Virus record (IMG/VR): IMGVR_UViG_3300030098_002588
Location: 1-30,271 of that record
Reading direction: 5' to 3' (one strand)
DNA from: a virus
DNA: 30,271 nt
Shown here: one piece after another, positions 699 to 24,293 of the stretch
Numbering within the stretch: position 1 is the stretch's first letter
Layout: the number at the start of each line of letters is the position of its first letter
Notes under the pieces: generated by a model
Database searches by the model: none
What the model was told of the DNA's origin: nothing
Seen by the model: only the letters and a program-made list of their open reading frames with translations
Program-made: the position numbers and the translations under genes

Positions 699-1712
699 TT
701 ATGTTCTGTCAGAAATCAATTCAATCGCAGCAGCAGGGTTAAGTGTACCGACACCCATTGCTAAACGTCCAACAATAACGTCTCCTTGGTAAAGTACTGA
801 AACATCCCCTGAAGTTACTTGAACTTGAGGACCGATTGCTTCAACAACACCAGCAGCATCTTTGTAGTAGATTAAACCACAGTGCTTAGAGAAGTCTCCA
901 TTGTATGCATTGTTCTCACCAGTTTCAGCGTTTACTGTACCAGCTAGGAATGGTAGATTATTAGAACGTCTGATCTGAATACCAGCGATCTCATATAGAC
1001 CTTCACCAGAATTTAGATTACCTTGTCCATTACCAAAGTCTCTATTAAGGATATTAGTAGATACCTGAGAAACTAGAGCATAGTACTGTCTTGGAGATAG
1101 TACAGCTGTTCTACCTTGCTTAGGCATATTCTTTTCATCAAGAATAGAAGCTGCTTCAAAGAAAGCATCTACTAGTGCTTGAGCATCATACTCCTTAGTT
1201 ACACCTAATTGGATCTGAGAACCACCAGGCTCAGGACCAGGAGATGCCTCGATAGGATGTGACTCACGAGCTGCTAAAGCAATCGTTCTGAAGATTTTCT
1301 TATCATATGCTTCAGCTAAAGCATGACCGATCTTCTTACTGATTTCTCCTCTAAGTGAGTAATGAGCAAGTGTTTCATCTAAGTCATAAATGAAAGCTGA
1401 ACCGATAAGGAGATCATCACAATTGATTGTCTTCTCAGCTACTGGAGGATCACCCGAACCCAATATAGGGGTTCCTGGCTCATGATAAGCAGCGGTCATT
1501 CTTCCTGTGAAGATGAACTGTAAACTCTTACCGTTCTTTAGTGTACGTCTTTGTACTGTATCTCTTGCAATTGTTGCTGACTCATAAGCTTTAAATAGCT
1601 CACCTGAGAACAGCTTGAGGTAGGTGTTATACTTAGTATCATAATCACCGCCCCATGTACTAGATACAGCCTTATTAGCTGAACCTAATACCGATTGTGT
1701 GGCATTAGCCAT
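699..1712 (-). CDS. Major capsid protein (T7 gp10-like)
   Basis: A 337-residue protein close in length to T7 gp10A, which forms the icosahedral shell. The N-terminus (MANATQSVLGSANKAVSSTW) and internal segments such as IARDTVQRRTLKNGKSLQF, FTGRMTAAYHEPGTPI and PRQYYALVSQVSTNILNRDF are typical of cyanopodovirus capsid proteins of the HK97 fold. The ATG start is conserved in kind. Unlike T7, where scaffold directly precedes capsid, here hli, psbA, ndhI, a beta-barrel gene and two virion-like genes lie between them. A structured leader with a terminator-like hairpin (1839-1865) lies upstream, so capsid probably has its own transcript end or start there. Confidence 0.95.
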   Translation of the reverse strand: MANATQSVLGSANKAVSSTWGGDYDTKYNTYLKLFSGELFKAYESATIARDTVQRRTLKNGKSLQFIFTGRMTAAYHEPGTPILGSGDPPVAEKTINCDDLLIGSAFIYDLDETLAHYSLRGEISKKIGHALAEAYDKKIFRTIALAARESHPIEASPGPEPGGSQIQLGVTKEYDAQALVDAFFEAASILDEKNMPKQGRTAVLSPRQYYALVSQVSTNILNRDFGNGQGNLNSGEGLYEIAGIQIRRSNNLPFLAGTVNAETGENNAYNGDFSKHCGLIYYKDAAGVVEAIGPQVQVTSGDVSVLYQGDVIVGRLAMGVGTLNPAAAIELISDRT

Positions 1713-1743: not shown

Positions 1744-1755
1744 TTACGCACGTAA
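1744..1755. promoter_or_regulatory. Inverted repeat in the capsid leader
   Basis: TTACG, CA, CGTAA forms a short inverted repeat about 35 bases upstream of the capsid ATG. Similar TTAC..GTAA palindromes occur at 25902-25913. It could be an operator or a small hairpin; no function can be assigned. Confidence 0.3.
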
Positions 1756-1838
1756 ATTTTTTGATCATTTTTTGTGGTCTATCCCACCGTCTAGACGGCT
1801 AAAGGGTATCCTGCGTACAGGGCCAAAAGCCAAAAGAA

Positions 1839-1865
1839 AAGGAGTCCGACTCTGAGGTGCTCCTT
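1839..1865 (-). promoter_or_regulatory. Leader hairpin, copy A of a shared 15-base loop
   Basis: On the minus strand AAGGAG and CTCCTT enclose the 15-base loop CACCTCAGAGTCGGA, followed by a T-rich run. The same loop with one change is held by a different stem at 3040-3070. Copy A lies between the stop of the 168-residue gene and the capsid ATG, so it may act as a partial terminator, a processing site or a translational leader. Downstream on the minus strand, still before capsid, there is also a 12-base palindrome, CCGTCTAGACGG. Confidence 0.6.
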
Positions 1866-1877
1866 ATCTGAGTTTGT

Positions 1878-2384
1878 TTAGAACTTCTTATATTTTAAAT
1901 ATGAACCTGCTTTTAAAAAGCATTTATTACCAACCGCATCTTCTACTGTGTTAGCTGACCATTTGTATTCAAAATTACCTGCAGTACTTGAATTGATAAT
2001 AGTAAGAGTATATCTTAAAAATCCAGTAATATTAGCAGATCCATCAGTTGCAACATCTAATACACCAGTATTGGTTGTAGATTCTTCTACATAAATATGT
2101 GCAGATCCATCAACTTTACGACCATCTACATCCCATCTTATTATTGATCCTGTAGGTCCAACTAATTGGTATCTGAAATCTTTATTTTGATGTGCGAAAT
2201 ACCAGATACCTAACTCACCTATAATTCTTTCATTTTTACCTAGTGCAATCGTAAAATCAGATTGTGCTGCTACTGTATTACTGTTATTGACAGAATCAGT
2301 ATCATTTGCTAATATACTTTGATAATTAACTGCACTTGATGAATAAGTTACTGTACCTGCTGTTGTGTTTGTATATAATGGCAT
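1878..2384 (-). CDS. Virion-like protein, paralogue of the preceding gene
   Basis: A 168-residue protein clearly related to its upstream neighbour. Both begin MP-x-x-TNTT, followed by TV-x-YSS, share the core GK-x-ERIIGE, and end AGS-x-x-x-YK-x-F. The middle has diverged. Composition (Asn, Thr, Ser, aromatic residues, predicted beta strands) fits a capsid decoration or fibre-like head protein, which is inferred from composition and position only. ATG start, two bases after the upstream stop, with AAGAGG as ribosome binding site overlapping the end of the upstream gene. Confidence 0.75.
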   Translation of the reverse strand: MPLYTNTTAGTVTYSSSAVNYQSILANDTDSVNNSNTVAAQSDFTIALGKNERIIGELGIWYFAHQNKDFRYQLVGPTGSIIRWDVDGRKVDGSAHIYVEESTTNTGVLDVATDGSANITGFLRYTLTIINSSTAGNFEYKWSANTVEDAVGNKCFLKAGSYLKYKKF

Positions 2385-2386
2385 GA

Positions 2387-2938
2387 TTAGAACCTCTTAT
2401 AATTAATCCATGATCCAGCTAGTAGAACAGGTGCTCCATCTATACCACCTGCTTGAAAACTTAATGTACCATTTTTACCTTCGTTACCTATAGCTGAAAA
2501 TTTAATAGTTGCAGCTAAAGGTGAGTCATCTGAGCCTGCATTTAGTCTTATTATAGCACCTCTACCTGTATTATTGTTTGGTGAAGCATCTGAAGCTGTA
2601 CCACCTTCTAGGTTTGCATTCTCAGCATTATTAGAATCTACAACATCACCTATACAAGCTACTACAGAATAATTAAAAATAGTATCTAGATAAGCATTAG
2701 CAGAATCTACATTTTGAAATCTAAATGAAAATTCATTAGCATTATTTGAAGTGTAAAAAACATTTACTTCACCAATGATACGCTCATATTTACCTATACT
2801 TATTTTAAATTCATCTATAATACCAGTAGTTTCAGTTAAACTAGCTCCTAATGTTAAATTATTTTGTAAAACTTTCGTCTCCCAAGTAGGAGAAGAATAT
2901 ACCACAGTATTTTTTGTGGTATTTGTATGAAAAGGCAT
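2387..2938 (-). CDS. Virion-like protein, first of a tandem pair
   Basis: A 183-residue protein paralogous to the 168-residue product immediately downstream (shared N-terminal TNTT motif, central IGKYERIIGE and C-terminal WINYKRF-type ending). It is rich in Asn, Gly and Ser, without signal peptide or membrane helix. The gene begins a unit after the beta-barrel gene's terminator and a structured leader. The tandem copy arrangement suggests duplication followed by divergence of the middle portion. I infer a role on the virion surface; no named family is recognised. Confidence 0.75.
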   Translation of the reverse strand: MPFHTNTTKNTVVYSSPTWETKVLQNNLTLGASLTETTGIIDEFKISIGKYERIIGEVNVFYTSNNANEFSFRFQNVDSANAYLDTIFNYSVVACIGDVVDSNNAENANLEGGTASDASPNNNTGRGAIIRLNAGSDDSPLAATIKFSAIGNEGKNGTLSFQAGGIDGAPVLLAGSWINYKRF

Positions 2939-2961
2939 AATTATTTCATTAATCGAATCTA

Positions 2962-2978
2962 GTATAGTTCCGCTATAC
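2962..2978 (-). other. Short perfect hairpin upstream of the tandem virion genes
   Basis: GTATAG, CGGAA, CTATAC forms a six-pair stem with a five-base loop ending about 23 bases before the ATG of the 183-residue gene. Upstream in the same leader, AATTCCCTTGACC and GGTCAAGGAATT can pair as a longer stem (about 2990-3040). The leader is therefore heavily folded. Confidence 0.5.
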
Positions 2979-3039
2979 CAGTTACTAAATTCCTTGACCG
3001 ACTACAACGGACCGTAGCGGGTAAGGGTCAAGGGAATTA

Positions 3040-3070
3040 GTCAGAGATCCGACACTGAGGTGTCTCTGAC
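3040..3070 (-). promoter_or_regulatory. Leader hairpin, copy B of a shared 15-base loop
   Basis: GTCAGAGA and TCTCTGAC form an eight-pair stem around CACCTCAGTGTCGGA, a loop that matches copy A (1839-1865) at 14 of 15 bases and in exact length while the stems differ. It lies in the leader of the tandem virion genes. A conserved loop on non-conserved, self-complementary stems indicates an RNA-level element. Confidence 0.65.
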
Positions 3071-3105
3071 CGATGGTAGTTTAAGTGCATACTTTCTACC
3101 AATAT

Positions 3106-3137
3106 AAAAAAGGATAGTAATCCGAAGACTACTATCC
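3106..3137 (-). terminator. Rho-independent terminator after the beta-barrel gene
   Basis: An eight-pair stem (GGATAGTA with TACTATCC) extended inside by TC/GA around a UUCG loop, followed by six T residues on the minus strand. It lies 22 bases after the stop of the outer-membrane protein gene and should end the hli-psbA-ndhI unit. Confidence 0.88.
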
Positions 3138-3629: not shown

Positions 3630-3706
3630 AATAAATCCTCTAGTACCAAGACCCCGTTCCATGCCTTGGTTTCATGCGTCCATGAATGATGGATGAACGG
3701 ACGTGG

Positions 3707-22917: not shown

Positions 22918-23301
22918 TTAAACAGCAATCAATTCAGTATTAGTAACTGAATGAGTAACATCTAAAGCATTCGACTTGAATGAATACCAAGCACTTGAAT
23001 CAAATTCATAGTCACGTCCATGGTCAGTGACAAACCATTCATGATTCTTTTGATAGACACCATTCTTGGTGCCATCTAAGAATTCATTAATGATTGCATT
23101 AAGACGTGACTTGGTAGTGTTAGTACGCCAACCAGCATTGCTAATACTCACATCACCATTGTCCTTGACAGTAGCTATGTGATTACCATGAAGGTAGACG
23201 TCAGAGTGAGAGTTAAATACCCTCACTACTTCCGTGTTAGAACTGCGCCAATTACCTTTGTTATTAATAGCAAAGAGCATAGACTGTTCAATCTTACGCA
23301 T
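22918..23301 (-). CDS. Conserved cyanophage protein, unknown function
   Basis: A 127-residue product from ATG at 23301. Contains GNWRSSNTEVVRVF, DVYLHGNHIATVKDNGDVSI, WRTNTTKSRLNAIINEF and VYQKNHEWFVTD. I recall this pattern (a WR.. strand, a VYLHG.. strand, then TKSRLNA and WFV) in hypothetical proteins of other cyanophages. Predicted beta-rich. It comes just after the tRNA-Asp gene. Confidence 0.7.
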   Translation of the reverse strand: MRKIEQSMLFAINNKGNWRSSNTEVVRVFNSHSDVYLHGNHIATVKDNGDVSISNAGWRTNTTKSRLNAIINEFLDGTKNGVYQKNHEWFVTDHGRDYEFDSSAWYSFKSNALDVTHSVTNTELIAV

Positions 23302-23333
23302 GAGAATTAATAACTACTCTCATTGAGTAGCAA

Positions 23334-23405
23334 CGGATGATAGGGGAATCGAACCCCTAACTATGGATAGACAATCCATGGTTATGACCATTTAACTAAT
23401 CATCC
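23334..23405 (-). tRNA. tRNA-Asp(GTC)
   Basis: All arms are complete: acceptor GGATGAT/ATCATCC with discriminator G, D-stem GTTA/TAAC, anticodon stem ATGGA/TCCAT with loop TTGTCTA (anticodon GTC), T-stem AGGGG/CCCCT with loop TTCGATT. No encoded CCA. It lies between two early genes in the same direction and must be cut from their transcript; RNase P processing would also split the mRNA. Confidence 0.92.
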
Positions 23406-24245: not shown

Positions 24246-24293
24246 AACCCAGTCAAGGACTCGAACCTTGATGAACGCCGATGCATTCTGGGT
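24246..24293 (-). pseudogene. tRNA-like element 1 (variable-arm hairpin, T-arm and acceptor)
   Basis: On the minus strand ACCCAG pairs with CTGGGT and encloses two hairpins: GAATGC-ATCG-GCGTTC and a T-arm CAAGG-TTCGAGT-CCTTG. This is the 3' part of a class II tRNA (long variable arm, T-arm, acceptor) with no D- or anticodon arm. At 48 bases it cannot be a working tRNA; it may be a remnant or a mimic recognised by RNase P. Confidence 0.5.

Follow-up and report, generated by a model that had tools for sequence, protein, structure and literature searches.

A covarying hairpin alternates with tRNA-like RNAs upstream of the major capsid gene of cyanopodoviruses

Two hairpins with a shared loop in a cyanopodovirus fragment

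What is the function of a 15-base loop that a phage presents twice, on two different self-complementary stems, upstream of two of its genes? The pair occurs in a 30,271-base cyanopodovirus fragment (IMGVR_UViG_3300030098_002588; this whole stretch is referred to as the window), the genes of which lie on the minus strand. All RNAs are given in mRNA sense, i.e. as the minus strand of the window. As read off the open reading frames (ORFs), the window also encodes psbA, hli, an Fe-S protein, portal, RNA polymerase, integrase, terminase and talC, and further family matches were obtained for the Fe-S protein and a cyanophage outer-membrane protein. The features surrounding the two loops are as follows.

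699-1712, minus strand: major capsid protein (MCP) gene (PHROG 267 major head protein, E 2.8e-80)
1835-1869, minus strand: hairpin module, copy A; strands 1860-1869 and 1835-1844, 15-nt loop 1845-1859 CACCUCAGAGUCGGA; based on covariation and folding
3038-3072, minus strand: hairpin module, copy B; loop 3048-3062 CACCUCAGUGUCGGA
2988-3037, minus strand: stable hairpin directly 3′ of copy B, UUCCCUUGACC...GGUCAAGGAA; kept in six relatives
2959-2981, minus strand: second hairpin of the copy B leader, CUGGUAUAG-CGGAA-CUAUACUAG
2387-2938, minus strand: ORF behind copy B, function not assigned; related to ORF 1878-2384

The original prediction described two 15-base loops identical at 14 positions, and these were found exactly at 1845-1859 and 3048-3062 (minus strand), held by the stems it had named: AAGGAG/CTCCTT at 1839-1844 and 1860-1865 in copy A, and GTCAGAGA/TCTCTGAC at 3040-3047 and 3063-3070 in copy B. 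The true stem is longer than first noted, at ~10 bp, with 9/10 positions paired in copy A and nine consecutive pairs in copy B. Every other site in the window carries at least three mismatches to the loop, indicating that the two copies did not arise by chance. Further hairpins follow 3′ of both copies, as had been proposed. The assignment of both copies to leaders of virion genes was upheld in part: it is established for copy A, which precedes the MCP gene, whereas family searches with ORF 2387-2938 behind copy B (35% identity to ORF 1878-2384 over 74 residues) gave no informative match. The leaders of copy B and of phage P-SSP7 are more stable than shuffled sequences (z about -3.2 each). The folding energy of the copy A leader by itself is unremarkable against shuffles (z -1.22), and the case therefore rests on comparison.

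Searches with Rfam 15 (cmscan) yielded no family at or near the gathering threshold at the hairpins or at the conserved element downstream of copy A (see below); tRNA and Glutamine riboswitch models did match, but either at other sites or in the tRNA versions of the leader, and all remaining matches fell below gathering. A scan for intrinsic terminators (G+C-rich stem plus T run) found none at either hairpin, and a general host (cyanobacterial) element was rejected, with model R1 matching only 2/386 and 3/201 genomes. Separately, a strong hairpin resembling a terminator, complete with T run, is located at 3112-3137 (minus strand), in the interval that separates copy B from the outer-membrane protein gene, and a Glutamine-II riboswitch (58.4 bits) at 3645-3702 (minus strand) is followed 3′ by a small ORF and the outer-membrane protein gene. 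P-SSP7, S-TIP28 and other relatives carry a Glutamine-II riboswitch immediately 5′ of the MCP module.

The hairpin is a covarying RNA

Copies in related phages proved abundant: at least 120 IMG/VR stretches contain the exact loop. Stems of 5 bp or more flank 114/121 of its occurrences among the IMG/VR matches listed, versus 3/119 in GTDB genomes, where nearly all loop matches are stemless and attributable to chance. One cellular-genome match of model R1 (L402) was recognized from its context as a phage MCP leader. Four GTDB matches have real stems (L338, L361, L368 and L329), of which L338 is a Synechococcus single cell carrying phage DNA. The other three are cyanobacterial contigs with the same hairpin on unrelated 9-11 bp stems, L361 being labeled Flavobacterium but cyanobacterial in appearance. 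The hairpins of L361 and L368 precede DUF2997/DUF1257 genes, and that of L368 adjoins HNH or collagen-like tail genes; these two probably reside in other phages or mobile DNA.

Differing stem sequence with retained pairing had been taken as the mark of a conserved RNA, and comparative analysis bore this out. In an alignment of 24 hairpins, including three from cellular contigs, all 10 pairs covary, each being changed on both sides in some sequence. Overall, 93.8% of alignment cells pair (62.1% in shuffles), and the covariation score reaches 0.992, compared to 0.316 in shuffles and at most 0.279 with the strands slid. Among 89 distinct stems, G-U combinations (81) far outnumber A-C (12), which establishes the mRNA-sense (minus) strand as the one that folds. 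With few exceptions the loop conforms to CACCUCA-NN-GU(C/A)GGA, which differs from a standard T-loop. Covariation and the abundance of copies thus support a conserved RNA in late leaders of cyanopodoviruses.

A conserved core links the hairpin to the capsid gene

Downstream of copy A, the capsid leader contains a second conserved element, referred to as the core, with the following parts.

1832-1834, minus strand: 3-nt junction N-U-U from module to core; predicted cleavage region
1773-1831, minus strand: conserved capsid-leader element; helix P2 1831-1823 with 1806-1797, P3 UACG-loop hairpin 1821-1810, GAUACC 1810-1805
1787-1798, minus strand: palindrome 1, CCGUCUAGACGG
1774-1787, minus strand: P5 hairpin GUGG-GAUAGA-CCAC; hexaloop conserved, stem differing by lineage
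1744-1755, minus strand: palindrome 2 in the window phage, UUACGUGCGUAA, with a central U-G

Across MCP leaders the core comprises P2 (GGC...GG with CC...GCC), P3 closed by a UACG-type loop, the GAYAMC bulge, a palindrome, and P5 closed by a GANAGA loop. Its four-base-loop form is present in 229/249 MCP leaders, most others having a longer P3 or a variant seen by eye. Next to its loop, P3 pairs in 30/30 cells, as compared to 45% when strands are re-dealt. Covariation of P5 is real but stems from only five distinct stem pairs. The P5 pairing GUGG/CCAC was preferred over GUCUA/UAGAC, the minimum free energy prediction, because the latter is lost in CATG-type relatives. A pseudoknot between CACC of the hairpin loop and GGUG of the core was likewise rejected, as GGUG varies and the loop does not.

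Core forms (GCC, hairpin, GAYAMC) precede the MCP gene in Syn5-type cyanophages and, as recognized by eye, in P-SCSP1d, one pelagiphage, two roseophages and one Rhizobium phage. No recognizable module was found in the core-bearing pelagi- and roseophages or in one further leader (L248); the core can therefore do without the module, which counts against the punctuation reading proposed below. The spread to pelagi-, roseo- and rhizobiophages would make the core an undescribed RNA family that marks capsid genes of very abundant ocean viruses.

The palindromes behind the core are self-complementary through their centre. In 200 distinct leader tails we counted 203 perfect palindromes of at least 12 nt (5.2 in shuffles), representing 40 different 12-mers, and 80/97 four-base "loops" are themselves palindromic. 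Single departures from the palindrome are more often U-G (30) than A-C (9), hinting at RNA-RNA dimers. Many relatives further carry GAGAG and CUCUC ~15-20 nt apart between palindrome 2 and the start codon, a pair absent from the window; its pairing could mask the stretch just 5′ of the MCP start codon.

Hairpins and tRNA-like RNAs occupy the same slot

Since sampling by the loop would have biased the comparison, leaders were collected by MCP protein, and isolates were added. In 110 non-redundant cyanopodovirus MCP leaders (a few automatic assignments were corrected by hand), the position upstream of the core is filled by the hairpin in 61, by a tRNA-like RNA in 39, by a full-length or degenerate tRNA in nine and by none of these in one. 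A tRNA or tRNA-like unit thus lies directly 5′ of the capsid mRNA in 48/110 leaders. None of the sampled MCP leaders was found to hold two modules; two flagged automatically as having both (L164 and L198) were judged by eye to be hairpins. In P-SSP7, P-SSP2, S-TIP37 and S-SBP1 the core is present and the hairpin is replaced by a tRNA-like RNA, and NATL1A-7 carries a tRNA-Gly in the slot. Among other isolates, Syn5 has a tRNA-like RNA, and KBS-P-1A and S-RIP2 have the hairpin.

The tRNA-like RNAs are 39-60 nt long and devoid of a normal anticodon arm; their acceptor-like helix and their T arm, with the loop UUCRANN or UGCRANN, are in most cases accompanied by a small inner hairpin. They were assigned by a pattern search checked against shuffles: strict folds occur in 39/48 such leaders, as compared to 0.2 per composition-shuffled whole genome, and 0/39 encode CCA. 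In 32/44 T-type modules the acceptor and T helices total 11-12 bp, with most mini forms splitting them as 5-6 + 6-7 bp rather than 7+5. This total matches the 7+5 stack whose length RNase P measures (tRNA dimensions as in PMC4919913). The hairpin offers ~10 bp plus a possible CC/GG step inside its loop. Rfam tRNA scores descend stepwise (70.5, 70.3, 49.4, 45.8 and 32.3 bits) to mini forms without a match. Likewise, a tRNA covariance model match with a decoding anticodon is found in L123 and L143, more weakly in L184, L187 and L095, and in no mini form; neither hairpin copy of the window matches the tRNA model. ARAGORN assigned unusual anticodons, ACA and CAA, to tRNAs otherwise resembling one lineage.

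Exchange between the two kinds of module was repeated. The MCP tree requires at least 23 hairpin/tRNA switches, 17 of them forced by well-supported branches; the figure of 23 is a count on this tree rather than a rate, and the switches are not strictly independent because MCP and leader may recombine. Relatives with swapped modules share 75-96% identity 3′ of the module, versus 48-62% across it: 96.1% versus 62% for L130/L186, 96.0% versus 56% for L095/L134, and 88.6% versus 54% for L184/L181. By eye, L244 compared with L245/L246 shows the same pattern. Identity begins at the first base after the module, placing the switch point at the module's 3′ edge. The spacing is also kept, with 3 nt from the end of the module helix to P2 in 52/52 hairpin leaders and 7/9 tRNA leaders. 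Hairpin and tRNA-type modules are thus interchangeable in front of the capsid gene.

The layout recurs at other sites

The window contains a further site at which a tRNA stands before a gene.

23335-23405, minus strand: full tRNA before an early ORF (Rfam tRNA, 64.3 bits), followed by UU and a hairpin, in the layout of the capsid leader
23314-23331, minus strand: hairpin GCUACUC..GAGAGUAG after the full tRNA, 13 nt before the ATG at 23301

P-SSP7 has the same hairpin as 23314-23331, there behind a tRNA-like RNA at 975-1044, and in copy B the hairpin module precedes a different stable structure that lacks the capsid-leader core. As these three sites repeat the pattern, the general layout seems to be a module, a short U-rich joint, a stable hairpin and a gene. 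P-SSP7 (L220) also has a third tRNA-like fold near its left genome end (603-647), with no obvious hairpin behind it. A tRNA-like match at 24247-24293 of the window is located inside an ORF and is probably due to chance.

The modules as candidate punctuation marks for tRNA-processing enzymes

The exchange with tRNAs favours a role in processing over one as a ligand-type regulator. We consider it reasonably probable that the hairpin is one of several interchangeable, tRNA-mimicking punctuation modules, at which host tRNA-processing enzymes would cut the late transcript. Gene order and the Syn5 promoters suggest module and capsid message to be part of one co-transcript. To the host, the modules would display an acceptor/T-arm helix like that of a tRNA; RNase Z would then cut the long late transcript at the 3′ edge of the module, and RNase P perhaps at its 5′ edge. 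The capsid mRNA so released would begin 2-3 nt before a stable helix, which may hide its 5′ end from RNase E-type, 5′-end-dependent decay. A tRNA-like mark would recruit cutting enzymes found in every host and could stand in for the numerous promoters and RNase III sites by which T7 divides its late RNA. The RNA polymerase of Syn5 is reported to serve over 37 kb from a single promoter (PMC3950665). Such a phage must shape gene output post-transcriptionally; infection with P-SSP7 increases RNase E (PMC9692554), so that protection of the 5′ end would pay.

Given its 10-bp stem and non-T-loop, it is by its interchangeability that the hairpin itself becomes a candidate substrate of tRNA enzymes. 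We are evenly divided on a stronger form of this proposal, namely that the 35-nt hairpin is a non-tRNA mimic of the tRNA elbow and acceptor helix, adequate for RNase P and RNase Z. It would then end a series leading from tRNA via degenerate tRNA and tRNA-like RNA to hairpin, the forms having been repeatedly exchanged, and cyanopodoviruses would divide their transcripts by tRNA mimicry.

Since its loop departs from the standard T-loop, the hairpin may instead act with a different nuclease or a binding protein. In this view the module would serve RNase E, some other nuclease of the host or an RNA-binding protein of the phage in processing or stability, and tRNAs would substitute only by virtue of being compact, stable RNAs. 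The nearly invariant loop resembles a specific protein site, copy B appears to work with a different downstream structure, and the rise of RNase E in P-SSP7 infection (PMC9692554) would fit as well. However, any stable hairpin should then suffice, yet the alternatives are always tRNA-like with a T-loop, mostly have an 11-12 bp helix and leave the spacing nearly unchanged. In addition, by the standards of RNase III a stem of 10 bp is short. On balance we regard this explanation as rather unlikely.

Alternatively, module and core could form a single RNA fold that controls capsid translation. The fixed 3-nt spacing, the conserved unpaired nucleotides of the core, and the palindromes and GAGAG/CUCUC near the start codon would all suit such a translational or tertiary regulator. 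But the slot is filled by three unrelated sequences, the core persists without a module in roseo- and pelagiphages, and copy B has the hairpin without the core, which makes the proposal distinctly unlikely. It is also improbable that the module constitutes the 3′ end of the upstream mRNA (psbA or its neighbours), a tRNA-like end that protects it or receives CCA: although the module lies behind psbA or small ORFs in many phages, and a mature 3′ end would need processing as CCA is not encoded, the upstream genes and flanks are unconserved (0.09 bits per position) while the downstream element is constant.

That the 15-nt loop is a phage promoter with incidental stems, the alternative raised in the original prediction, is very improbable: its length and invariance are promoter-like and a promoter precedes the capsid gene of T7, but covariation of 10/10 stem pairs with a G-U bias, the lack of the loop sequence in 48/110 relatives and the unconserved upstream sequence contradict it, no promoter of the Syn5 type (ATTGGGCACCCGTAA) or other conserved DNA block was found 5′ of the leader, and the Syn5 promoter itself, the one cyanopodovirus promoter described in the literature covered, differs in sequence from the loop and has two sites in the Syn5 genome (4928 and 44796), none near MCP. 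Equally remote is the notion that the tRNAs are ordinary acquired decoding genes located before MCP by accident, for although NATL1A-7, L143 and the Rhizobium phage RHEph01 carry intact-looking tRNAs there, the majority are either degenerate or without a normal anticodon arm, and the hairpin with which they alternate is unable to decode.

Relation to known RNA systems

The literature covered, which is part of the whole, contained no earlier description of the hairpin/tRNA interchange. The closest parallel to the proposed punctuation modules is the tRNA punctuation of mitochondria, in which RNase P and RNase Z cut around the tRNAs of a polycistronic RNA and thereby free the mRNAs. In both cases an mRNA within a long co-transcript is immediately preceded by a tRNA or tRNA-like unit, degenerate or miniature tRNAs are tolerated and CCA is not encoded. 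Unlike in mitochondria, the setting here is a DNA phage in bacteria, the tRNAs are largely degenerate, a dedicated hairpin takes their place in more than half of the relatives, and cleavage is a prediction. T7, of a related phage group, also divides its late transcripts (by class III promoters and RNase III sites), and a capsid leader that begins with a hairpin is common to both; cyanopodovirus leaders, by contrast, have a tRNA-like module in place of an RNase III-sized duplex or a promoter signature. MALAT1 mascRNA and the TMERs of gammaherpesviruses are tRNA-like elements cut by tRNA enzymes. The phage modules would share with them the use of a tRNA-like structure as a cut mark within a longer RNA, but are unrelated in sequence, bacterial, modular and exchangeable for a hairpin. 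The Glutamine-II riboswitch (RF01704, downstream-peptide motif) is, like the hairpin, a structured RNA of the same phage gene cluster, but a separate one, as its model matches neither hairpin.

If correct, the punctuation model would account for the abundant capsid message that T7-like marine phages draw from a single long transcript despite having very few promoters. It would likewise give a reason for their tRNAs and broken tRNAs, which are of no use in decoding. The modules would moreover provide a natural series of minimal tRNA mimics, down to a hairpin of ~35 nt, for probing the requirements of RNase P and RNase Z. Outside the cyanophages, the Rhizobium phage RHEph01 has a tRNA-Asn (L223, 773-846) upstream of its MCP gene together with a core-like motif, suggesting that the placement of a tRNA before the capsid gene may extend beyond this group.
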